Of a stretch of 64,000 nucleotides of DNA, positions 4,896-42,790 are shown in pieces. Under the pieces are notes generated by a model. That model searched no databases. It was not told the origin of the DNA and worked only from the letters and a program-made list of their open reading frames with translations. Positions within the stretch are counted from its first letter, which is position 1. Each line of letters starts with the position of its first letter. This stretch comes from Betaproteobacteria bacterium (GTDB lineage Bacteria; Bdellovibrionota_B; Oligoflexia; Silvanigrellales; Silvanigrellaceae): NCBI GenBank assembly GCA_016868315.1, contig VGHE01000005.1:62001-126000 (forward strand), given 5' to 3'. A program made the position numbers and the translations under genes.

Positions 4896-4935
4896 TATTT
4901 TCTAAAAAACCACACCATTGCCTTCGGAGGGGTGG

Positions 4936-5964
4936 ATGTTCGATTGGTTTCTGCGTTTGCTGTCCCATGATCTCGCTATTGACTTGGGAACGGCCAATAC
5001 ACTTGTTTACGTTAAAGGTAAGGGCATCGTTGCAAACGAGCCTTCAGTTGTTGCCGTGCAGCGAGACAGCCGTGGTCTGCGGACTGTTAAAGCAGTAGGT
5101 CGCGCAGCGAAGGAAATGCTCGGACGTACTCCCGGAACCATTGAAGCCGTTCGTCCTATGAAAGACGGCGTGATTGCCGACTTCGAGCTCACCGAGAAGA
5201 TGCTCAGCTACTTCATTGGCGTTGCGCACAACCATCGCTCTTTGGTGCGTCCACGCGCGGTTATCTGTATTCCTTACGGAATTACGGAAGTGGAAAAGCG
5301 AGCCGTACGTGAGTCCGCCGAAAGCGCGGGTTGCGCTTCCGTATTTCTTATTGAAGAACCCATGGCGGCCGCAATCGGCGCCGATCTTCCCATTCACGAA
5401 GCTAGCGGCAACATGATTGTCGACATCGGCGGCGGAACCACAGAAGTCGCAGTTATTTCGCTGCTTGGTATCGTCTACTCGAAGTCTGTGCGCGTGGGTG
5501 GCGACAAAATGGACGAAGCTATCGTCAACTACCTCAAGCGCCGTTTCAACGTATTGATCGGTGAGAGAACCGCTGAGCAAATCAAAATTGCCATCGGCTC
5601 TGCGTATCCTGAAGAAGAAATCCGCACCATGCAGGTCAAAGGCCGCGACCTCGTTGCCGGTATTCCCAAAACCATTGAAGTAACGAGCGAAGAAATTCGC
5701 GAAGCAATGCAAGAGCCAATCAACGCTATTGTTGAAGCTGTGCGCTTGGCTCTCGAGAAAACTCCTCCAGAACTCGCAGCCGACATCGTCGACAAGGGTA
5801 TCGTGCTTGTGGGCGGTGGTGCACTTATCCGCAACCTCGACATTCTTCTCCGTGAAGAAACCGGCTTGCCCATTCTGGTTGCCGAGAATCCTCTGACGGC
5901 AGTTGTTATGGGCTCGGGTCGCGTGCTCGACAACCCAGATCTCCTCCGTGAAGTAACCTTCTGA
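4936..5964 (+). CDS. mreB: Rod-shape-determining actin homologue MreB
   Basis: 342 residues, normal MreB length. MreB polymerises on the inner membrane and directs lateral wall synthesis. Visible actin-fold signatures are phosphate 1 loop [12 protein letters not shown] near residue 13, phosphate 2 loop [14 protein letters not shown], and the adenosine motif [15 protein letters not shown]. The N-terminal [12 protein letters not shown] is an amphipathic membrane-binding helix, which favours the ATG at 4936 (preceded by CGGAGG) over one six codons upstream. mreC/mreD do not follow; instead a strong terminator lies at 6010-6044, so mreB is the last gene of its transcript here. Confidence 0.97.
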
Positions 5965-7925: not shown

Positions 7926-8548
7926 ACAAAAAAACTCAGCAGAAATCAGCTCTAGTTTTGCCGCATTCGCAAACCCAAATTTGGGTTTTGGGTCTGGCTG
8001 TCGCCCTGGCGGGCAGCGCTGTGACGGGCTGCAAAAGCCGTTTGTTTTCGTTTGGTGAAGAATCGAATGCGGGCGGCAACCCACCCTCCTCTTCCGATCA
8101 AAACCGCGCAGGGCAGATTGCCATTGGACAGCAGAGCAATCCCAGCTCAGGCTCAGGTGCGCAAAAAAGTGATAACGTGACCGCAGCACCCTATGCCCCC
8201 CTTCAGGGAACTCAAAAGAAACTCGCCCTCGGCTCAACACAACGCTTCGAAGTCAACGGCCAGCAAGTGGACGTCACCTTCGAGCAAATCGTTGAGGACT
8301 CGCGTTGTCCGAAAGATATGGTTTGCGTGTGGGAAGGCCAGGCGAAACTTCAGTTCGCCCTCAGTGTTCAAGCCCATGGTCTTTCTAAGAAAGTTGTTCC
8401 GACGCTGCGCGCCGGACACCCCGAGCTAGGTCAGGTTCTGGTGGGCACCATCGGGCTCGACCTCGTTGGTCTGAGCCCAGATGCAGTGAGCACGGGTCAG
8501 AAAGCCGTTTCACCCGAAGCCACAGTGGTGGTTGGCAAAGCTCCCTGA
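7922..8548 (+). CDS. Lipoprotein with a CP-x-VCVWxG cysteine motif
   Basis: 208 residues. Signal peptide with lipobox AVTGC (Cys near residue 38), a Ser/Gly/Asn/Gln-rich spacer to about residue 95, then a small domain with the motif SRCPKDMVCVWEGQAKLQF. This SRCP...CVWxG motif recurs in uncharacterised exported proteins of several bacterial groups, as far as I recall; no biochemical role is known to me. The start overlaps the previous stop (ATGA). The 3' end overlaps by 52 bases the end of the convergent metalloprotease gene. Confidence 0.75.
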   Translation: MNKKTQQKSALVLPHSQTQIWVLGLAVALAGSAVTGCKSRLFSFGEESNAGGNPPSSSDQNRAGQIAIGQQSNPSSGSGAQKSDNVTAAPYAPLQGTQKKLALGSTQRFEVNGQQVDVTFEQIVEDSRCPKDMVCVWEGQAKLQFALSVQAHGLSKKVVPTLRAGHPELGQVLVGTIGLDLVGLSPDAVSTGQKAVSPEATVVVGKAP

Positions 8549-11034
8549 GCTGCTGCAAGAATGGCGTTCAGAATAATGGCCGCCGGAGCGCGCGCCTCTG
8601 GCCACAGAGCTTCACAGCCAGGCGCATTGGCAGCCGCTGCTGAAGTGTCTCCCGAGGTCGCCGTGCAAGGCTCACGATTCAAAAGCAGCTGCAAGGCTTG
8701 AGCATGACTACCCAAACGTCTAACCGCAGGGTGCTCGGGATTTTCGCCCGCAAGCACTCCCAAAGCGGTCACTGCAAACACCATGTCCTCAATCGACTTT
8801 TGGCCTTTGATAACCAAGATGACCGACTTACGCGAACCAGGCGCTGGACCATCGATGCTCGTATTAGGCACAGCGAGAACCTGCTGGCGGTGATTGAAGA
8901 ATGCATCAGGCAAAGCAAAAACGAACGGTTGACCATCGAGTTTTGCCTGTGAAGCTTCTTTGCGTTGACCATCATCGAGGAATTCGAAGTCAACGGCAGT
9001 GCCCTTGGGCAGAACAACCTGATGACCGAAGTGGTCGAGAAGATCATCCAAATAAGGATATGTGACACCAGCTTGGAAAACGTTGTTCACAACACCGGTA
9101 TAAGCGCTATCTGAGCCGCGGCTCTTGGCACGTGTTTGCAACATGCGCGTCACGGCCATAGCTGAAATCCCCACATCTTTACGCACGAGTTCAGAAATCA
9201 CGGCTCCGTACTCGGGGCTGGCAAAGAAGTCAGGCTTGAGCTGCAGAGCTGCCTTCATCGCAACAGGCTCAACACCATACTTAGACGCGAAGCTCTTAAG
9301 AAACTCCTGCTGAACACCCTGACCATTGTAGGCCAATTCAGCAAGCTGCAAGTATGCCTTGCGTGCCGCGAATTCAGTTGTTTCGGCAGCCGTCTGCTGT
9401 GCAATTCCCCACAGCGCTGTGAGCTTCTGCAACTCTTGACCCAGACTTCTCACGAGCTGCGCGTAAACCATGGGTGAACGCGGATCGAGAACCGCATCCA
9501 TGGGGTTTGCATAGCGCAAACGCTGAAGAATCATATTGGCACGGTGCAAGGTAAATTCGTTGAAGTCCTTGCCGTAGTCGAAGCGCTGGCAATTACCCAG
9601 TGCGGTGACGTTGCGATCAGTACAGAAGGCAGTCTGGGTTTTGAACTTCATGCCTTCGCTAGGCAGGTAATAAGCCGCAGCAAGAGCAACAATGTCGTAG
9701 GCACCAAACGTAGGCAATCCTGCAGCACCATCGGCCGAGGCGAAATCTTTCATCGCGCCCGCACCCATATCGATACCGTAGTCGTTGTAGTCCATCACGG
9801 AATCCGTGTGCACATCGACCGCCACAGGAGGCTTAACATCGGCTTCGAGTTCAGCGGGCGTTGTGGAGGCAATGAAGTTATGCCGCAATCCAAAAACGTG
9901 ACCAAGTTCGTGAACAAGCACAGAACGCAACAGTGACAGAGCTCCTGCTTCCGGAGAATTCACGAGCGGCGAAGTGATTACGGGTGCACCACTCTCGGCC
10001 ATGTTGATGTCAGCGTTCGGTATGAACTGCTTAACGCAGTCGAGCTTCGAGTTCATCACATTCTTGCCGCTGCTCAGACGCTTAACGAAACTCGCAAAGC
10101 TGCTGCCATCCGTATGAGCTGCCTCAAGAGCTCGGGCACGTTTCTCAACCAACTCTTTGAGTGAAGACTTGTGACCAAGCTGGCTGCGGATTTCCGAGGC
10201 CAGGTGCTCAGCAGAACCCAATTGCAGAGCGTTTGCGCTTTGCACAGGCTCGAGCGTCGCGACCATCTCTGAAGGTTTAACAACACGACCGAGTTGTTCC
10301 GAGGCAAAGCGTGCCAACGCTGCGAGGTCGCCTTTGCGGTTCGCTGCGTCGAACGCCTTAAGAGCCGCAGGACTGACGTCTCCGCCATTGGAATTACGTT
10401 TGCTGAAAATACCGAGGTTCGCCAAAGCCGCTTCGCACTTGGCATCCCAAAGGAAACGACTGACGGGCGACGGAACCGTACCAGCCGGGCGCCTGGGAAG
10501 ATTCGGCTCTTTGTCCTTCTGCCAGGTGCGCGCGAAGTAGCTCTTGCAGCCCTCCATTGCCCACATGGAACCAGTCATCATGACGTCACCGGAGATGATT
10601 TCACCCGTCTTTGGATTTGCCGCTGCAGTTGCCCAAGCAGAACCAATAGCAAATGAGTCGTCCCAGAAAATCATGTTGACGCGCGGATCAGCGGCGCTGA
10701 CCGCACCGCCGAGTGCAAGACCTGAATCACGATTTTGAGCTTCAAATTCATCCTGCGTGAGAGCGGTGATACGCGCAGCAGCCTTACCCTCAGGTGTAAG
10801 CCCCTTGAAGAGCTCCGCATAGGAATTTACCGCGGATTTGAAAACCGGAACCACTGCAGGCGGAACACTGCGGCTAATAACGAAGGTAATGTCTTTCTCG
10901 AGGTTAAACTTGCGCACATAAGCAACAGGCTCACGCGCACGCCCACCACGGCTCTCAAAAAGAGGTTCGGTCACGAAGTAGGGGACGTCTTTGCCCTCGG
11001 TGCGATCGTTCACGCCGCGTGAGCGCAGTTCCAT
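8497..11034 (-). CDS. Zinc metalloprotease lipoprotein, C-terminal part of a frameshifted gene
   Basis: 845 residues from the first in-frame ATG after the break at 11034-11089. It contains the zinc motif HELGHVFGLRH (HExxHxxGxxH, encoded near 9880-9913) and a downstream SVMDY Met-turn, the metzincin arrangement, and resembles the large bacterial zinc-dependent metalloproteases that carry DUF5117/DUF4953 regions. Removing one copy of a 28-base tandem duplication joins this frame exactly to the upstream lipoprotein frame, giving a 1275-residue protein (8497-12352). The ATG at 11034 has no ribosome site, so on its own this part is unlikely to be translated or exported. The proteolytic role is inferred from the motif; substrates are unknown. 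Confidence 0.85.
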   Translation of the reverse strand: MELRSRGVNDRTEGKDVPYFVTEPLFESRGGRAREPVAYVRKFNLEKDITFVISRSVPPAVVPVFKSAVNSYAELFKGLTPEGKAAARITALTQDEFEAQNRDSGLALGGAVSAADPRVNMIFWDDSFAIGSAWATAAANPKTGEIISGDVMMTGSMWAMEGCKSYFARTWQKDKEPNLPRRPAGTVPSPVSRFLWDAKCEAALANLGIFSKRNSNGGDVSPAALKAFDAANRKGDLAALARFASEQLGRVVKPSEMVATLEPVQSANALQLGSAEHLASEIRSQLGHKSSLKELVEKRARALEAAHTDGSSFASFVKRLSSGKNVMNSKLDCVKQFIPNADINMAESGAPVITSPLVNSPEAGALSLLRSVLVHELGHVFGLRHNFIASTTPAELEADVKPPVAVDVHTDSVMDYNDYGIDMGAGAMKDFASADGAAGLPTFGAYDIVALAAAYYLPSEGMKFKTQTAFCTDRNVTALGNCQRFDYGKDFNEFTLHRANMILQRLRYANPMDAVLDPRSPMVYAQLVRSLGQELQKLTALWGIAQQTAAETTEFAARKAYLQLAELAYNGQGVQQEFLKSFASKYGVEPVAMKAALQLKPDFFASPEYGAVISELVRKDVGISAMAVTRMLQTRAKSRGSDSAYTGVVNNVFQAGVTYPYLDDLLDHFGHQVVLPKGTAVDFEFLDDGQRKEASQAKLDGQPFVFALPDAFFNHRQQVLAVPNTSIDGPAPGSRKSVILVIKGQKSIEDMVFAVTALGVLAGENPEHPAVRRLGSHAQALQLLLNREPCTATSGDTSAAAANAPGCEALWPEARAPAAIILNAILAAAQGALPTTTVASGETAF

Positions 11035-12352
11035 TTGAGAGATGCTGAGCGGAACTGCCTGTTTGAGAGATGCTGAGCGGAACTGCCTGTGTTTCTGCGA
11101 ACGAATCTTTTCCCGAGGGCAGTGGAAAAAAACCTTGCACCAAATGAACAGTCGGGCGGAGTGAATCTTTACCCGTGCTTTCTTCACCCGCCTCATCGTT
11201 ACCACCCAAGAGTGGTGCCGTGGCGTTGATGAGCACCAGCTTGTCGAGCACAAGGCTTGAATCTTTTGAGTTAAAGTAAAGGCCGTTGTTCATCCCAGCC
11301 AGCACTGCTTTCGGAGCATGCGCAATCTTGGGAACCACGACGTCAGCTTCCATTTGCAGCGCAGGCTCGTTGCCGGCACCGAAAGACGACACGAGAAAGC
11401 TTTTATTCTCAGGACGGCTGAAATCGACCTGATAATATTTTTCCTTGGATTGCGGATCTTCGACCGTGCGTACGATTGGGTACGACGCAACGATGAGGTC
11501 TTCCTGAGACGAACCTGCGTAAAGACCTTCGCCAGGACGGCTGACAATCATACGTTTGTTGTTGATTTTGAATTCAACAACCATCGATTCGAGATTGAAA
11601 ACGCGGCTTGAGCCCACAGAGCCCTGCTGCAGCGAAGTGGTCAAAACATAACGCTTGCCTTCGATGAACGAGCTTCCCAAGTAAGGAAGATCCATGGACG
11701 CCTGCTGCACCGAAAGAATTTCAAGTGCACGTGTGGCTGTATCGAGCGAACGGTTCATGCGCACAAGCATTGCTTCAATGCGGTCGGCCTGCGAAAACAG
11801 CGAAACCATGAGAATCGGGGCTGAAGCACTGAGCGCATCGAGCTGAGCATTGCTCAACAATGCACGACCAGTTGCTTTCTCTGGTTGAGCTGCTGAATTC
11901 AACCAACGACGTGCATCGCGTTCGTTTTGGAAATTGTCTTCAACAATCTCGTAAAAGAGACAGCTGAGAAATGCGGACGACTTCTCTGGAGCGGCAACGC
12001 AGTTGGTCGACGACTGACGCCCGACTTTCTGGGTAATGCCTTTGGCAAAGCTTCTCGCCAGTGCTTCTGCGAGAATCTCGCGTTCCTTCGCGCTTACACT
12101 GCTGCGTTCCACGGCTGAAAGACTCTCATTGAAGAGAGCACCGAGACCCAAAGAAAGTTCATTTTCGAGTTCATCAGCAAGACTGCGCGCCTGAGCCGGT
12201 GTAGCGGGCACTTCGGGTTGCACAAATTTACCAGAGGGGAGCTCGCGCGACTGGCTTTTGTCGCGGCTGCAGCCAGCAACTAACGACAAGCCGAGCGCGG
12301 CAACGAGACCGATTTTAAAGTACTTTTGGAGGGTATCCAGGGGTGTTTTCAC
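10955..12352 (-). CDS. Zinc metalloprotease lipoprotein, N-terminal part of a frameshifted gene
   Basis: 465 residues. A signal peptide ending in lipobox LVAGC (Cys 28) directs it to the envelope. Residues 1-430 are the true N-terminal region of the metalloprotease; the last 35 residues (starting TGSSAQ) are out of frame, read through the second copy of a 28-base duplication to a stop at 10955. The start is taken as GTG 12352 with GAGG six bases upstream; ATGs at 12376 and 12397 lie in frame but have poorer sites and would lengthen the signal n-region. Whether the gene is dead, phase-variable or a sequencing/assembly artefact cannot be told from one sequence. Confidence 0.8.
   Translation of the reverse strand: MKTPLDTLQKYFKIGLVAALGLSLVAGCSRDKSQSRELPSGKFVQPEVPATPAQARSLADELENELSLGLGALFNESLSAVERSSVSAKEREILAEALARSFAKGITQKVGRQSSTNCVAAPEKSSAFLSCLFYEIVEDNFQNERDARRWLNSAAQPEKATGRALLSNAQLDALSASAPILMVSLFSQADRIEAMLVRMNRSLDTATRALEILSVQQASMDLPYLGSSFIEGKRYVLTTSLQQGSVGSSRVFNLESMVVEFKINNKRMIVSRPGEGLYAGSSQEDLIVASYPIVRTVEDPQSKEKYYQVDFSRPENKSFLVSSFGAGNEPALQMEADVVVPKIAHAPKAVLAGMNNGLYFNSKDSSLVLDKLVLINATAPLLGGNDEAGEESTGKDSLRPTVHLVQGFFPLPSGKDSFAETQAVPLSISQTGSSAQHLSNGTALTRRERSHRGQRRPLLRDRTSF
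11034..11089. repeat. Perfect 28-base tandem duplication that frameshifts the metalloprotease gene
   Basis: Two identical 28-base units, 11034-11061 and 11062-11089, each beginning TTTGAGAGATGC on the plus strand and ending GAACTGCCTG. Twenty-eight is not a multiple of three, so the extra copy shifts the minus-strand frame. Both frames read AVPLSISQ at the junction, as expected for a recent duplication in coding sequence. Confidence 0.97.
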
Positions 12353-12599
12353 GCCAGACCTCGCGATGAAGAGCATAAGGGGACAGCGCACTAGCAAGAG
12401 ACCACATCAGGGTCAACAAAATTCTTGAATGATTGGCCATTTCTCCAAAATGACAACATCACGAAAAGACTGAATGAGATCGCTGGGGAGAACTCTTTGC
12501 CATTATTATAAGCAAATATATCTTGCGGCCTCACTCATCTTCTCCTAGCAGAGAGGAAGTGCGCGCGAAACGCGCCTTTCTTTGAAAGGAGAGTTGCCC

Positions 12600-12899
12600 A
12601 TGAGCACCTTTTCAACGCTCTTCAACCGGTTCGAGAGAGCCACTCAGCCTCGCTTCATGACAGACCTCAAACCGCACTTTCCGAGTGTGGAGGAACTGCT
12701 GGCAAAGGCAGAGAGAACCACGCAGAGCTGCAGACTCTCGGAGCAGATTGATGTGAGCCGGCTTTTCTATAAAGACGTGGCTATCCGTGGTTTGAATAGC
12801 CGCAGATACTCGATCGAAGAGGCTAAACGTGTCGGCATTATTGTCGATTACCTGGCCGAGACTCGCCGCCGTCAGCTGGCTCCCGCAGACGCGGTTTAA
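12600..12899 (+). CDS. Hypothetical protein (99 residues)
   Basis: A soluble basic protein without signal peptide or membrane segment; the C-terminal half looks helical (EEAKRVGIIVDYLAETRRR). The ATG at 12600 is preceded by a strong AAAGGAGAG site with six-base spacing. It is a single gene, divergent from the metalloprotease and overlapping the convergent lipoprotein by 62 bases at the 3' end. No family recognised; the strong ribosome site and conserved-looking composition suggest it is expressed. Confidence 0.6.
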   Translation: MSTFSTLFNRFERATQPRFMTDLKPHFPSVEELLAKAERTTQSCRLSEQIDVSRLFYKDVAIRGLNSRRYSIEEAKRVGIIVDYLAETRRRQLAPADAV

Positions 12900-13863
12900 C
12901 CAGCGCACCCGAGGCGGAGGTCACCCTCCCCCGTCCTCGGGAATCCAGGCCAAGCACAACCTCGGCTGCGTTTGTCTGACTTTTAAACTTCCTCAGGCGG
13001 GTCATGGTCTCCGACCAAGCCCCCAACCGCCGCAGCGCCGAAACTCGAAACCGACGCACGTCATCCTGTTTTCTCAAAGCCAATTCTTCGGTCAGCTGAG
13101 TCCAGCTGGCCAAACGAAAAAGCACTGAACGCGCAAAAACCAACGCCTCGAAATACAAATCGTGATCAATCCAGAGCGCAACATGCTCAACCCGGTCGTC
13201 TGCCTGAAAAACCACGAGGTCACCGACGGCAAAGCCACTGTTACGCTCTCGGCTCTGTGCAGCTGACGATGAGCGCGAGAACGGCACCGCGCCAACAAGC
13301 TTAAACACCTGCCGGTTGGAAAGAAAATCTTCGAGCTGCGTATCGGCATACGACACAAAGCGGAGGTTACGACCGTCGCTCAGTAAAACTGCAAAGAGTG
13401 CTTCAACAGAGCTGAGTTTTGCAGCTTTGGAATCGAATTGAAACTCGTGGTTCAAAACTGCCTGCACGGATGGTGAGAACAAATCCGACAACTGATAATT
13501 CTGTTCTGCTTGTGAAAAACTGACCCGTGATGAAGAGCCGCTAGAATAAAGCGAAACAAGCCTCTGAAGCTCAGCTGGGCTCGAAGCAGAAAGAGTGACT
13601 TGCAGACATCGCAGTGAAACAGCATTTTGGGTTTTACCCGTGGGCATAGGCAGCGCCAGATCACGCAGCGAGGCCTGCACCCGAATCCCAAAACTCTCGA
13701 GAAGAGGAAAAGTAGGAGTATCAACCGTATCGTTCGATACAGTCGATTGCACTGCACCCTGAGGTTGACGCGGCTTGTCGCGGACACACGAGAGCAAAAG
13801 AAAAGCCATGAGAGCCAACACCAGAGCTCCCACGCGCAGTGCTTTGGGTTGGCTGAATTTCAT
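12838..13863 (-). CDS. Lipoprotein of unknown function
   Basis: 341 residues with a signal peptide ending LLLSC, so the lipidated Cys is near residue 26. The segment GDLVVFQADDRVEHVALWID resembles the GDLVxF...HVxIY strand pair of NlpC/P60-type domains, but no catalytic Cys-His pair could be assigned, so this may be only fold similarity or chance. The ATG at 13863 has GAAGG eight bases upstream; a GTG 15 bases earlier is less likely. It starts 15 bases after purH and is probably the last gene of the his-purH transcript. Envelope location is well supported; function is unknown. Confidence 0.65.
   Translation of the reverse strand: MKFSQPKALRVGALVLALMAFLLLSCVRDKPRQPQGAVQSTVSNDTVDTPTFPLLESFGIRVQASLRDLALPMPTGKTQNAVSLRCLQVTLSASSPAELQRLVSLYSSGSSSRVSFSQAEQNYQLSDLFSPSVQAVLNHEFQFDSKAAKLSSVEALFAVLLSDGRNLRFVSYADTQLEDFLSNRQVFKLVGAVPFSRSSSAAQSRERNSGFAVGDLVVFQADDRVEHVALWIDHDLYFEALVFARSVLFRLASWTQLTEELALRKQDDVRRFRVSALRRLGAWSETMTRLRKFKSQTNAAEVVLGLDSRGRGRVTSASGALVKPRLREPADGGESRPGNRQ
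12908..12941. terminator. Compound hairpin at the end of the 12600-12899 gene
   Basis: Outer arms CCCGAGG (12908-12914) and CCTCGGG (12935-12941) enclose inner arms GGAGG and CCTCC. It starts nine bases after the stop of the plus-strand gene but has no T tract, so it may be a weak terminator or an RNA stabiliser. It lies inside the 3' coding part of the convergent lipoprotein gene. Confidence 0.4.
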
Positions 13864-13878
13864 GCGCAGCACCTTCAC

Positions 13879-27483: not shown

Positions 27484-28845
27484 TCAATCGAGCTGGCAGG
27501 AGAGCAACTGGCGGTAGTGCTTCTCGACGTCTTGAGCAAAACGCTCGCGCTTTCCCGGGATGCCGTTAAAGGAATACGCCAACTGATACAGGTCACTCGA
27601 ACCAGCGGCTACCTTGGCTGCGACCTGGCGTAAGCCGAAGCGCAAATTTGTTAGCATGTTGTGTGTGATTCCCCGCCACGCGGGATCCTCTTGCGGCAGT
27701 TTGCGACCTGCGGGAGTCACCGCTGCGCTCACCCGCGCCAGACCAACACCTCGACACCGTCCGCGCCAGCACTCGTCGTGCCACAAACCAAGCCGACTCT
27801 GGGTCATCACAAAGGCCATGTAGGCCTCTACCGGACGCAAGCGACCGGTTGCCCACGCACGAAATGTCTGTGCTTCGGGCGAGTGAGGTTCGTGCACTAC
27901 GCGATAAAAGCAACCTTTGAGAAAACGCGCCCGTCCACACACATCGAGTGTGTGAAAATCTTTGTTGCCTAGCAGGGCTGAATCCTCGCTGCGATCGAGC
28001 GGATAAACCTGAGGTTGCTGCAGGGACAGCAGACGCCTATCGATTGTTGTAAAATCGGCTGTTCCGGGTCGCTCATCCCAACTGTGCACACAGTAGGTTG
28101 GTGCACGTGGAGTGTCATCGACCTGTGCAACAACAGATTTTGCAGGCTGCTCTTTGACCGGCGCTGGAACTTCGACAGGCTGCTCTTTGACCGGCACCGG
28201 AACTTCTGCGGGCTGCTCTTTGACCGGCACCGGAACCTCCGCGGGCACAGAGCCTTTTTCAAGTGCTGGTTTTGTAATTTCGGGACGCACGGCCGCAGGA
28301 GATTCCTCGTTGGCAAATTTGAGAAAATCAGGAGGCCAGACGATTTCATCACATTGGCTCTGCTGCACCGCTGGCACTGTTGCACGACAGGCCATAATCT
28401 GTTGCAAAGTGAATGGACCATAAATATTGTCCGAACCGATACACACTCCATTTCGGCCAGGTGAGGTACCAGGCGGACAGCCCTGCTTGTAATTCGATAC
28501 AAGAGACATCAGGAGCTCGAATGGCCAATCCTGTTTTTGCACACAGGTGGAAGCATCCTCAGGGGATTTCTCGCGACACAACTCCTGAAGCTGCAGCGGA
28601 AAAGGTCCCAGTGCAAATCCACCACGCGTCACACAAACCCGAGGAAAAGAATTAAAACGTGTCCCGGAAGGACACACAGCAGATGTGGCATCCGGGCTCG
28701 CTCGGCTTGAAATAGAACCTGAGGCGCTCTCTTTTGATCCGCTCGAAGACTCTTTGACTGAGTTGCGAGACACGCAGCCAGTTATGAGCAAGCCCAGAGC
28801 GCAGCCCATAGAAAAGGTCAGCGAGACAAAAGAACGGACACGCAT
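27484..28845 (-). CDS. Lipoprotein with EVPxPVKEQP repeats and a degenerate lytic-transglycosylase-like C-terminus
   Basis: 453 residues. Lipobox LLITGC near residue 24. Residues 55-170 hold two Cys-rich units that align (CPSGT...VCVTRGG...GPFPLQ and CPPGTS...VCIGSD...YGPFTLQ). Three near-identical 11-residue repeats (PAEVPVPVKEQ type) follow near 195-230. The C-terminal part (AYMAFVMTQSRLG ... GVGLARVS ... LAYSFNGIPG) has the SLT transglycosylase layout, but the catalytic Glu of the ESxxG motif appears to be Gln. It could bind peptidoglycan without cutting. Last gene of the coupled minus-strand operon; TGATG overlap with the upstream gene. Confidence 0.6.
   Translation of the reverse strand: MRVRSFVSLTFSMGCALGLLITGCVSRNSVKESSSGSKESASGSISSRASPDATSAVCPSGTRFNSFPRVCVTRGGFALGPFPLQLQELCREKSPEDASTCVQKQDWPFELLMSLVSNYKQGCPPGTSPGRNGVCIGSDNIYGPFTLQQIMACRATVPAVQQSQCDEIVWPPDFLKFANEESPAAVRPEITKPALEKGSVPAEVPVPVKEQPAEVPVPVKEQPVEVPAPVKEQPAKSVVAQVDDTPRAPTYCVHSWDERPGTADFTTIDRRLLSLQQPQVYPLDRSEDSALLGNKDFHTLDVCGRARFLKGCFYRVVHEPHSPEAQTFRAWATGRLRPVEAYMAFVMTQSRLGLWHDECWRGRCRGVGLARVSAAVTPAGRKLPQEDPAWRGITHNMLTNLRFGLRQVAAKVAAGSSDLYQLAYSFNGIPGKRERFAQDVEKHYRQLLSCQLD
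28145..28244. repeat. Three 33-base in-frame repeats in a lipoprotein gene
   Basis: Three copies of a 33-base unit (plus strand GGCTGCTCTTTGACCGGC core) encode an 11-residue Pro/Val/Glu repeat between the Cys-rich and C-terminal domains. Copies differ at a few bases. Length is a multiple of three, so copy number can change without a frameshift; it probably acts as an envelope spacer. Confidence 0.8.
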
Positions 28846-30728
28846 CAAGGTTTGGAACCCTCCAGAGTCCGCCTGTATGAACGCAAACAGACACGAAAAA
28901 ATTCAGCTGCCTGAGCGACATCGTAACCGCGCTGCTCGCAGACGCCAACATTCCAAACGGGTGTCAAAATCACATTGAATTTAGGATCAGAGAAAATCCA
29001 TTCACTTCCACCAATTCCCAGCGCAACTGGTTCACCCTGGCTTGAAACCACATTAGGACTGTAGAGATCAGCAGTTGCTAGTTGCTCACCAACTCCAAGA
29101 AACATCTTTGCCTTGAGAGTCGACTGTTGTACCGAGAGGGTCATCACATCCTCGGCGACCGGCACAACGAAAGCCATCAAAGCAGCACAGGCAGAGATTT
29201 GAGAAAAGGCCAACCAACGCGCAACTCCTCCTGAGAAGAGCGGGGAAAGCTTTCCGCGCTGCACACCCAGCTCGCCCCAGGACCGCAACAAAATTGCGCC
29301 AAAGCCCAAAAGCAGCCCCGACAGCACCAGACCAAGCGACAGCGAGCTGGAGTGTTGCAAGAGCGAGGCGAGCACCGCTTCTTCGCGCGGCTTCAGCTGA
29401 ATTTGAGCTGCCAAAATCGGCTCCCACAGCAACACTGCACAGCCCAGCAACACGAGCGCCAATGGAAGAATAAAAGCAGACCACTGAGCAAAAAAATGCA
29501 ACGCCTTTTGGGGAATCTTGTGCATTGAAAAAGAGCTATCGTGACCCGCAAAACTCGCAAGCAAAGCAAGTGCAGGCCAGATAGGCCAAATATAATTGGG
29601 CAGTTTTGTAGCGAGAAAGGAAAAGAACACCAGACAAAAAAGGCTCCAAGATATAAGCCAACGTTGAACTGCCCTCGATTTTTCAACAGCTGGAGTTCGC
29701 TTATTCTCAACGCGAGATTCAGGCTTCTTTTGAGTTCCTATGACGTAAACATAGGCAAGCCACGACAACGTAAAACCAGCTCCAAGGAGAACTATGGGAA
29801 CGTAGTAAAACACACTCCCACTGTGCCCCTCAAAGGCAGTCGTTGCCCGACCAAAGTGATGCTTGATAAAAAACTCTTCAACAAATGCACTTCCACCGCT
29901 GCTCCACAAAAGCCAGTAAAAACCAGCCGAGAAGAGTGCTGCCACCAACCATGCTGGAAAGAAATCGCGCAGCCCAGAATGCAATACGTTTAAAAAACTT
30001 CCACGCGGATTTTCTCGCCATTGAGATCCCTGCTGAAGCACAAGAAACACGACAGCCGCACCCGCAGGTAGAACCAAGCCAATGAGACCTTTGGTCATTG
30101 CCGCGCCTGTCATTCCAACAACTGAGCCGCAAAACAGCATCCAGGAAAAGCCAACTTGCTCGGAGTGACGGCTGACTCGCAAAGCCTCACAGCAAAAATA
30201 TAGAGATGTGAAAAAGACCAACATCGGGTCGAGAAGAATAGCCGAGGAAGAGATGGTGGGAAGAAAACTCATCAACAGAAAAAAAGCCGGAGGAATTCCC
30301 GCTTCATGGGTACGACGCATCTCGAAATCAGTGGCCTGACGCACCCCGGAAAGCAACATCCAGGTACGGTGTAACAGCCATGCAAGTGCGACCGCGAAAA
30401 AAATGCTCACCGTACGGCTTGAAAATGAAGTTACCTGTGGAGCACTTCCATCGGCCAGCGCACTGAACGCAGCGAGTACCGAAATATAAAAGGGAGGCTT
30501 ATGATTGTAGGCTTCACCATTGAACAATGGCTGGCTAAGCCATCCACCGGCACGTTTCATTTCTTCGGCCATTTGGCGATACACGGACTCGTCGAAATCA
30601 AAAGGCTCGATAGCCAGAGACCGCAACCAGAAAAAGGCGAGACAGCCACCCACGCCCATCAGTATCATTGGACTCAAAGCAAGCCGAGCAAGTCTTCTCC
30701 ACGCTGAAATTTCAGGTTCCGGAAACAT
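28845..30728 (-). CDS. Integral membrane glycosyltransferase, ArnT/PMT type (GT39/GT83-like)
   Basis: 627 residues with about eleven hydrophobic segments. The first periplasmic loop has FDFDESVYRQMAEEM, the Asp-Glu motif of polyprenyl-phosphate-sugar transferases (ArnT and relatives), followed by YNHKPPFYI, which also matches the family. Such enzymes move a sugar from a lipid carrier to lipid A or a protein at the periplasmic face. The acceptor is unknown. ATG 30728 is chosen (AAGGA upstream); it overlaps the end of the methyltransferase gene by 17 bases. The stop overlaps the next lipoprotein start. Confidence 0.8.
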   Translation of the reverse strand: MFPEPEISAWRRLARLALSPMILMGVGGCLAFFWLRSLAIEPFDFDESVYRQMAEEMKRAGGWLSQPLFNGEAYNHKPPFYISVLAAFSALADGSAPQVTSFSSRTVSIFFAVALAWLLHRTWMLLSGVRQATDFEMRRTHEAGIPPAFFLLMSFLPTISSSAILLDPMLVFFTSLYFCCEALRVSRHSEQVGFSWMLFCGSVVGMTGAAMTKGLIGLVLPAGAAVVFLVLQQGSQWRENPRGSFLNVLHSGLRDFFPAWLVAALFSAGFYWLLWSSGGSAFVEEFFIKHHFGRATTAFEGHSGSVFYYVPIVLLGAGFTLSWLAYVYVIGTQKKPESRVENKRTPAVEKSRAVQRWLISWSLFCLVFFSFLATKLPNYIWPIWPALALLASFAGHDSSFSMHKIPQKALHFFAQWSAFILPLALVLLGCAVLLWEPILAAQIQLKPREEAVLASLLQHSSSLSLGLVLSGLLLGFGAILLRSWGELGVQRGKLSPLFSGGVARWLAFSQISACAALMAFVVPVAEDVMTLSVQQSTLKAKMFLGVGEQLATADLYSPNVVSSQGEPVALGIGGSEWIFSDPKFNVILTPVWNVGVCEQRGYDVAQAAEFFRVCLRSYRRTLEGSKP

Positions 30729-39486: not shown

Positions 39487-41646
39487 TTATAGCAGCTCAC
39501 TCAGGCCAAGCGCATCAATGACTTGATTCAGGTCAGTCGCAACAACCAAACAAGTCCAAACCTGTTCGCACACATCAGCAGGGGTCGTTTCAAGAAGTCC
39601 CGAGAGAATAACCGTTCCGCCACTCTTACTTTGCACTTGAAGTGGATAATCGTTCATCCAGCGCTCACGCAGTTCAACAAAAGTACTGACACCGAACCGC
39701 TCAAGCCAGGCCGAATTGACATGCAGCCACAAACCCGTGCGTCCCGGAGCAATGCGACGGCTCAATGAAAGCGCAACTCGCCCCATTGTGTGTCGAGGAT
39801 TGATTTCAATAATAGGGAGAATCTCGGCCTCACCCGTGGCATTTTGGTAAAGAAATGTATCCACGCCGAAGGGACCTGTATACCCCTGTTGAGCCAGGGC
39901 TTCTCCCACGAAAACTGCAGCGCGTTGGAGAACATCCTCAACACGTCCAAGCTGTGCCGAGGGCTCGGCATGCCAAAAACGCAGAATCTTCTGATCACAG
40001 CTGGAGAGGAAGCGCCCAACAACCGAGCCAGCATACTGGCCATTGGGGAGATTAAGAATGCGCGTAAACCCAAGGACATGAACTTGATGCTTGCCATCCT
40101 TGAAATCAACACGCCCCTGGACAGAGACGTCCACCAGCCGTTCGAAGAGCGGCTGAACAACTGGAATCTCGCCAATGCGCCAGGATTTTTCAAACCAACG
40201 CCGCAACACTTCAGGCTGTTCAGACCAAGAACAGGCTGAAATATTCTCTACAAGTCTATGCCGCCCAGCGGCGCTCCAAGGGCGCTTGGCGATAAATTTT
40301 CCATTGTATCCGGCTTCCACAAAAGTGCGGATACAACTTTCGAATTGCTCCGGTGATGCCACGACCTGACCCACCACAGGGGCAGGCGGAAGGCGTTTAT
40401 CGTCAGAGTGCTTCTCGAGAAAATCCTTCAATACGCTCAGGGCAAAAGCCTTCGAGTAAATTTTGCGGAAGAGGCTAAGGTCGGTCGACCCTTGCTCGGC
40501 AAAGTTCAATTTTAATTGCTCAGCAAGACGCGCTGTGCGTGGGGTTGTAGCCCAGGGATGTACAGACTGTAGTTTGCGCAATCCCAAACGGCTCTTCAAC
40601 TCAGACGCTTCGCTGCGGGAATAAAGCAATTCGGGCAAGCCAAATCCACATCCACGCAAACGGAGAAGAAATTCGCGCGGCAACTCACGCGGACAAATAA
40701 GCACATCGTCCTGATTCAAAACATAGAGCATCGCGGGAGAAAGATCGGTACGTGCACTTGCAATTGCAGCAGTAAGCTCAACAACCTGCCCCTGACGGCG
40801 AATCTCCTCCTCCGCCTCGGAGTTGTAGAAGGCAAGGCGCGGCAAACCACCCTTCGACTGACTAAACACCTTGAGCTCGTCGATAAAATCCTGATCGAGT
40901 CCTGCTTTTAGGCGAAACTCTTCCCTGAAAATAGTTCCCTTGGCACGTGCGGCATTGATTTCTCCGCCAAGAGCTTCACAAAAAGCCTTCCAGTCGGATT
41001 GCGACTCACTTTTCCAGCGCCGAAACCAAACAACTCCATGCTTCACATGCCCAATTTCATCATCCAGAACGGATTGAAGGAGATCCGCAGTGTGGTGCTG
41101 ACCAATATCGCGCAACACATCGCGAAAATAGGCCGCAAAATCCAAATTCGCCTGTTCAAACGTCAGACTCATCCGCGCTACGTAATCGAGCGGGGTTTGC
41201 ATCGAAGCGCACTGGCTCCAAAAAAAATCATTCACCGGTATGTCACCCAGCTCAACACCAACTTCACGCATCTGCGCCAGGTACGAAGCCAGATGACGCT
41301 GTTCATCCAACATGGTTTTGGCCACACCCATCCGGAATGCTGGGGGGGCATCTGGAAATTTGAGCAAGGCGAGCGCCATGAGCTCGAGCGCCAACAGTTC
41401 ATGGTTTGCAAAAAAATGGAGAAGCACCCCGACTTTGACCGGGTCAAGCAGTTCGGCACGGGTCGGAAAACTGACCTTGGCCGCATTCTTCCAACGCTCG
41501 AAATCGAGCGCAGCGGGGCGCCCAGGACGAAAGGGCAAATGTTGCGGCTGAAACGGTTGCACATCGGTCAACTCACCGGGAGAGCAGAGTTTTTCCTCCA
41601 TCCGGCAAGAAAACAGAATTGTTTTGGCAAAATCAGTTAGCTCCAT
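39487..41646 (-). CDS. Fusion of ferritin-like DUF455 domain with ATP-grasp-like domain
   Basis: 719 residues. Residues 25-260 are a ferritin-like DUF455 (COG2833) domain with a full set of diiron ligands: FANHELLALE, MLDEQRHLA, FEQANLD and DDEIGHVKHG. The C-terminal half (about 395-700) has an ATP-grasp pattern: GKFIAKRPWSAAGRH like a nucleotide-binding Lys-Gly loop, then GPFGVDTF and EINPRHTMG (metal-binding ExNxR). ATP-grasp enzymes join acids to amines; DUF455 proteins have no proven general role. Possible RNA or peptide modifying enzyme, inference only. ATG 41646 has GGGGAG eight bases upstream. It lies between flgJ and fliL on the opposite strand. Confidence 0.75.
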   Translation of the reverse strand: MELTDFAKTILFSCRMEEKLCSPGELTDVQPFQPQHLPFRPGRPAALDFERWKNAAKVSFPTRAELLDPVKVGVLLHFFANHELLALELMALALLKFPDAPPAFRMGVAKTMLDEQRHLASYLAQMREVGVELGDIPVNDFFWSQCASMQTPLDYVARMSLTFEQANLDFAAYFRDVLRDIGQHHTADLLQSVLDDEIGHVKHGVVWFRRWKSESQSDWKAFCEALGGEINAARAKGTIFREEFRLKAGLDQDFIDELKVFSQSKGGLPRLAFYNSEAEEEIRRQGQVVELTAAIASARTDLSPAMLYVLNQDDVLICPRELPREFLLRLRGCGFGLPELLYSRSEASELKSRLGLRKLQSVHPWATTPRTARLAEQLKLNFAEQGSTDLSLFRKIYSKAFALSVLKDFLEKHSDDKRLPPAPVVGQVVASPEQFESCIRTFVEAGYNGKFIAKRPWSAAGRHRLVENISACSWSEQPEVLRRWFEKSWRIGEIPVVQPLFERLVDVSVQGRVDFKDGKHQVHVLGFTRILNLPNGQYAGSVVGRFLSSCDQKILRFWHAEPSAQLGRVEDVLQRAAVFVGEALAQQGYTGPFGVDTFLYQNATGEAEILPIIEINPRHTMGRVALSLSRRIAPGRTGLWLHVNSAWLERFGVSTFVELRERWMNDYPLQVQSKSGGTVILSGLLETTPADVCEQVWTCLVVATDLNQVIDALGLSELL

Positions 41647-41731
41647 CGAGCACACTCCCCAGAAACCAACCTCATCAGTACGTTTCTTGACGCCCAAGCG
41701 CAACAAAAGACCGACACCTGACCGGGCAATT

Positions 41732-41754
41732 CCCCTCTCTTTCGAGGGGGTTTT
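41732..41754 (+). terminator. Orphan terminator-like hairpin upstream of fliL
   Basis: CCCCTC, six-base loop, GAGGGG, then G and TTTT on the plus strand, 119 bases before the fliL ATG and after no plus-strand gene. It could end a short leader or small RNA starting in 41650-41730, or attenuate the fliL operon. Confidence 0.6.
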
Positions 41755-41872
41755 CGCATTCTGGCAAATCTTGCCCACGGGTCTCACGACATACGGACAT
41801 ATTTACACCATAGCGCGCCGGCGGAATCTGAGAAGCTCAAGGCGAGACCCTGTGCCGTATTCGGGAGTGATC

Positions 41873-42790
41873 ATGTCTAAGAAAGAAGCGAAGAAACCGG
41901 AAGAAGGCAAAGCCGAGGCCGCGAAAAAGGAAAAAGGGCCACCCGATGAAATCGCGGAGACCCGTAAGAAGAGAAAGCTTGTGCTTTTTCTTGGACTCAC
42001 AGCTGTAGTCTCTCTGGCAGCAGCTGCAGGTGGATTTTTTGTCTACAAAACCTTTGTGCAGAAGCCACATTCAATGGCTGCAAAAAAGGATGACACTGCA
42101 GCCCACGACAAGAAAGACGGGCACGCAGAAGACAAATCCAAGGCACATGATGAAAAGAATGATGGCGCACCGGCCGACAAAAAGGATGGTGCTGCATCTG
42201 ACAAAAAAGATGACGCAAGCGCTGAGAAGAAAGATGCAGCTGCCGACAAAAAAGACGGCGATAAGAAAGACGCTGCTCATGCTGATGCCAAGAAGGACGG
42301 CAAAGACGAGGCCAAAACAGACGCTAAAGATGCCGGTAAGGATGCTGGAAAAGACGCAGGCAAAGATGCCGGGAAAGATGCGGCCAAGGATGCCAGCAAG
42401 GATAAACCAAAAGACGGTGAGAAGAAGGATGAAACAGCAAAGACGAACGAGAAATCTGACGTCAAAATGTTTCAGTCTGATGAGACCTTTGGCGAAACCT
42501 ACGCTCTTCCAAAAATGGATTTGAATCTCGGCAATCCACTTGAGAACCGATATCTCCGTATCGCGGTGTCGATCGAATACACAGGTGGTAAAGAGCAGCA
42601 AGACGAGCTCAAAAAACGCGAGCCCCAAATCCGCGACCTCATTATCAGCTCAGTCAGCACCCGCACGAGGCTCGATCTCTTGACCGACAAAGGCAAGGAA
42701 AAGCTCAGACGCGAACTGATCAGCAAAATGAACGAAACCTTCTCGAGACCTGTGAAGACAATTTATTTCACAGACTTTCTGGTGGAGTGA
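41873..42790 (+). CDS. fliL: Flagellar basal-body protein FliL with extended Lys/Asp/Ala-rich linker
   Basis: 305 residues, about 130 longer than usual FliL. Short basic cytoplasmic N-terminus, one membrane segment (about 36-60), a periplasmic linker of about 110 residues made of KKD, DAGK and KDA repeats (residues 70-190), then the FliL domain (YLRIAVSIEY, LIISSVSTRTRLDLLTDKGKEKLRRELI, IYFTDFLVE). FliL surrounds or supports the stator. ATG 41873 has GGGAG five bases upstream. First gene of the fliL-fliA block; ends four bases before fliM. Confidence 0.92.
   Translation: MSKKEAKKPEEGKAEAAKKEKGPPDEIAETRKKRKLVLFLGLTAVVSLAAAAGGFFVYKTFVQKPHSMAAKKDDTAAHDKKDGHAEDKSKAHDEKNDGAPADKKDGAASDKKDDASAEKKDAAADKKDGDKKDAAHADAKKDGKDEAKTDAKDAGKDAGKDAGKDAGKDAAKDASKDKPKDGEKKDETAKTNEKSDVKMFQSDETFGETYALPKMDLNLGNPLENRYLRIAVSIEYTGGKEQQDELKKREPQIRDLIISSVSTRTRLDLLTDKGKEKLRRELISKMNETFSRPVKTIYFTDFLVE
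42090..42440. repeat. Low-complexity Lys/Asp/Ala coding repeat in fliL
   Basis: Degenerate AAGGAT/GACAAAAAAGAT and GATGC(C/T)GG(C/T/G)AA units, including four consecutive DAGK codon groups near 42330-42380, encode the periplasmic linker. Units are multiples of three bases, so expansion keeps the frame. Confidence 0.8.

Follow-up and report, generated by a model that had tools for sequence, protein, structure and literature searches.

Simple-sequence-repeat contingency loci carry long arrays of short units that are kept across strains, and their reading frames change with the copy number of the tandem unit. The capsule genes of Streptococcus pneumoniae undergo spontaneous, reversible sequence duplication, described for the type 3 locus, cap8E, and tts (Waite et al., 2001, 2003, cited in PMC4243769). 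Our literature search returned nothing direct on cap3A or on microhomology. Here we describe a 28-base tandem duplication that interrupts a putative metalloprotease gene in a 64,000-nucleotide stretch of a Silvanigrellales genome, hereafter the window. Like the pneumococcal duplications presented in PMC4243769, the one at this locus is perfect, lies within an open reading frame, is presumably inactivating, arose without a prior repeat array, and is in principle reversible. Reversion and a phenotype are reported there, while the present locus is a single genome's case. It shares with contingency loci the change of frame through tandem-unit copy number, but consists of two copies of a 28-base unit, and its relatives have no repeat. 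The split reflects a recent mutation of an ordinary sort, or possibly an assembly error, rather than any novel system.

The two copies are perfect and adjacent, and they lie inside a minus-strand coding sequence (Table 1). Tandem Repeats Finder reported positions 11034-11090 with a period of 28, 2.0 copies, 100% match and 0 indels, base 11090 being one extra match beyond the two copies. A pattern search of the whole 3.24-Mb assembly, allowing up to 3 mismatches, returned the unit at exactly two adjacent sites (C5:73034-73061 and C5:73062-73089, corresponding to the two copies in the window), with no further copies. Because 28 is not divisible by 3 (28 mod 3 = 1), the reading frame is broken, and the N- and C-terminal open reading frames are in different frames. 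The duplication is not a matter of chance; in 464 kb, comprising the window and 20 further stretches of the same genome, it is the sole perfect tandem duplication with a period of at least 12 that is not divisible by 3. Perfect repeats of shorter period not divisible by 3 were seen at L055 1014-1042 (period 10, 2.9 copies) and at L048 5239-5256 (period 8, 2.25 copies).

Table 1. Coordinates in the window of the duplicated unit and of the two parts of the split gene.
Feature	Positions	Strand	Basis
28-base copy adjoining the protease part (downstream in the gene sense)	11034..11061	-	Repeat finder and pattern search
28-base copy adjoining the lipoprotein part (upstream in the gene sense)	11062..11089	-	Repeat finder and pattern search
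N-terminal fragment: N-terminal domain with a lipoprotein signal (LVAGC)	10955..12352	-	Open reading frames, match to G001
C-terminal fragment: metzincin domain, HELGHVFGLRHNF and Met-turn SVMDY	8497..11089	-	Pfam PF16313, G001 homology, alignment

Two other repeats in the window lie in coding sequence. At 28145-28246, within the minus-strand frame 27484-28848 of a putative lipoprotein, a 33-base unit occurs 3.1 times in frame and encodes PAEVPVPVKEQ-like repeats; since its period is a multiple of 3, coding is kept. At 42161-42403, degenerate repeats with units of 12 and 24 bases code for a long linker rich in K, D, G, and A in a single-pass membrane protein (plus-strand frame 41624-42790), the C-terminal part of which appears FliL-like by eye.

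The N-terminal open reading frame (12397..10955, minus strand) and the C-terminal one (11253..8497, minus strand) both run open across the duplication, so that both frames are open for a few hundred bases around the break. The N-terminal frame, an open reading frame of 480 amino acids, carries a signal reading ...LSLVAGC, and the GTG at 12352 is its likely start; its match to residues 2-442 of the homologue in G001, a relative of the same genus, stops at residue 447, and the final ~33 codons, past the break, are out of frame. The C-terminal part matches Pfam PF16313 (DUF4953, "Met-zincin") with an E-value of 1.8e-14 and 54.2 bits against a cut-off of 24.2, whereas no Pfam match was obtained in the N-terminal part. 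The zinc motif HELGHVFGLRHNF and the sequence S(V/M)MDYNDYG are present in all four aligned homologues. Judging from this HExxHxxGxxH zinc motif followed by a Met-turn, the C-terminal part is a predicted DUF4953 metzincin. The C-terminal part is thus like other members of DUF4953, scoring above the family cut-off; the intact relatives differ from them by an additional N-terminal lipoprotein segment of ~440 residues without a Pfam match, and in the window this segment is severed from the protease. No signal peptide of its own was found on the C-terminal fragment. The gene is single-copy, with no second copy found elsewhere in the genome. The predicted structure of an intact relative's protein was of low confidence (mean pLDDT 52), and a sequence search of solved structures returned no relative of the protein.

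The first-pass annotation had described two perfect 28-base copies at 11034-11089 where the frame of an N-terminal lipoprotein gives way to a HELGHxxGLRH protease, and had proposed that removal of one copy restores a single 1275-codon frame. The repeat finder and the genome-wide search confirm the copies, the open reading frames and the DUF4953 match agree with the split, and the coordinates yield the restored frame exactly: counting from 12352 (GTG) through 8497 (stop) and subtracting 28 leaves 3828 bases, enough for 1275 codons and a stop. Beside the protease gene, at 12841-13878, lies a putative lipoprotein gene, collinear in G001 and G002, whose match to NlpC/P60 is borderline and falls short of the curated cut-off (E 1.7e-4).

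The locus was compared with the four closest relatives in which the homologue is full-length: G001 and G002 belong to the same genus, G003 and G004 to the same family; the public records for three of the four are metagenome-assembled genomes (CAIZJW010000205.1, JADCJN010000010.1, and RFOM01000001.1). All four carry the gene as an uninterrupted single frame (1282, 1280, 1295, and 1238 codons in G001 to G004, respectively), and an arrangement as two separate genes, the alternative that the first-pass annotation had named for close relatives, was seen in none. Identity of the C-terminal part to the two same-genus relatives is 72% and 61%. In the G001 alignment the N-terminal part corresponds to residues 2-442 and the C-terminal part to residues 431-1282, so that no piece of the homologue is lost between the two parts and the duplicated segment alone has two matches. 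At the homologous site the four relatives have no repeat, both DNA and protein holding a single copy. Because the relatives are single-frame and lack the duplication, it is derived in the lineage of the window and private to its genome. A recent pseudogene is expected to have intact orthologues at the same place, and here the orthologues are intact in G001-G004, with collinear flanking genes in G001 and G002. We found no further genome of this species, and the two-copy state is known from one genome. Elsewhere in the window, the plus-strand open reading frame 4906-5961 encodes a protein with 99.7% identity to that of G001 and 99.4% to the portion visible in G002, values much higher than those of its neighbours; it is probably a very conserved housekeeping protein.

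The gene is otherwise undamaged: its about 3.8 kb contain neither a further stop nor a further frame break. The share of single changes that would give a stop is 0.037 in the N-terminal part and 0.032 in the C-terminal part. From the lack of a further stop in about 3.8 kb and this nonsense share of 3-4%, we calculate that unconstrained divergence since the break is roughly below 2% (95%), a bound that fails for the C-terminal part if that part is still in use. The non-synonymous distance to the outgroup G003 is 0.770 for the window and 0.810 for G001 in the N-terminal part, and 0.635 and 0.651, respectively, in the C-terminal part. Because the distances of the window are not above those of G001, its lineage gives no indication of relaxed constraint; synonymous sites are saturated. 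The identity of the two copies says little by itself about age, given that they are 28 bases long. Given a gene without other damage and a protein whose evolution has been no faster than that of its sister, the event is either very recent or an assembly error.

Under the latter explanation the organism itself would carry a single copy in an unbroken gene, and the assembler or a mixing of strains would have created the other. The pristine state of the gene and the confinement of the duplication to this record both agree with it, as does the fragmented nature of the assembly (27 contigs, 94.8% complete, probably metagenome-derived). The assembly does not seem error-prone, however. In a survey of 126 kb, based on 102 query proteins from two relatives whose alignments reached 70% or more, two frames were needed for the split protease gene only, which was met by the queries of both relatives. 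Internal stops flagged in this orthologue survey were mostly near the ends of stop-to-stop frames, and the few elsewhere (e.g., G002 C1 138879-139607) were in alignments that probably reflect spurious open reading frames. The singularity of the duplication in the 464 kb sampled also speaks against an artefact, and ordinary repeat-driven misassembly is unlikely because the 28-base unit occurs nowhere else in the genome. We therefore consider an assembly or consensus error unlikely, and less likely than a recent frame-breaking duplication.

We also considered whether the split gene might still work, either as two cooperating proteins or through recoding in the frame overlap that would give some full-length protein. 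The open overlap around the break is compatible with this, as is an ATG at 11034 in the C-terminal frame, directly following the second copy. However, near the break, candidate starts have no Shine-Dalgarno-like motif at the usual spacing, the C-terminal part lacks a signal peptide where the protein of the relatives is one exported chain, and none of the relatives is split, which makes a functional split very improbable.

Most likely, the split is a sporadic, recent and presumably loss-of-function mutation that leaves the protease domain without an export signal. We put the probability at about 0.68 that a spontaneous, very recent 28-base tandem duplication frame-shifted a single-copy lipoprotein metzincin gene of ~1275 residues, with loss of the exported protease. 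The duplication may have arisen by replication slippage or template misalignment. Microhomology at the junction amounts to one base, which does not suggest a repeat-driven event. The 28-base unit is overlapped by an 8-base inverted repeat (GCAGTTCC / GGAACTGC); hairpin-driven slippage is a weak idea, as the folding energy does not surpass that of shuffled sequences (z -0.34). Translation from the normal start would yield a lipidated N-terminal domain followed by ~33 wrong residues and a stop. The catalytic domain, encoded just downstream of the break, would, if made at all, have no signal peptide and remain cytoplasmic, and in this way the exported protease would be lost. The mutation might be reverted at some low rate by loss of one copy.

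A mutation that can revert is not thereby a phase-variation locus, since such a locus requires that several states occur in the population. Under selected phase variation, gain and loss of the copy in a population would turn the exported protease off and on. This has a precedent in that tandem duplications inside open reading frames can revert, as in the pneumococcal capsule genes (PMC4243769). The gene is otherwise intact, as a switch would be, but intact flanks are equally expected from any very young mutation. Moreover, a contingency locus keeps its repeat tract with varying copy number, and none of the four relatives has a repeat at the site; the one-base microhomology and the single state in a single genome point the same way, and we regard a selected switch as highly unlikely. 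The first-pass annotation had called the event very recent and inactivating or phase-varying; the frame-breaking and recent nature holds, given the single-frame relatives, and phase variation is not supported, for the reasons above. By analogy with the pneumococcal capsule genes, one could even imagine that uncultured Silvanigrellales populations switch a large surface metalloprotease through gain and loss of short random tandem duplications, which we regard as very improbable.

Caution is called for, since automatic annotation of this locus would list a lipoprotein gene and, separately, a gene for a protease lacking a signal peptide, where the relatives show a single gene. If reads confirm the duplication, this little-studied bacterial order would offer a clear case of a large exported protease whose function was lost very recently.
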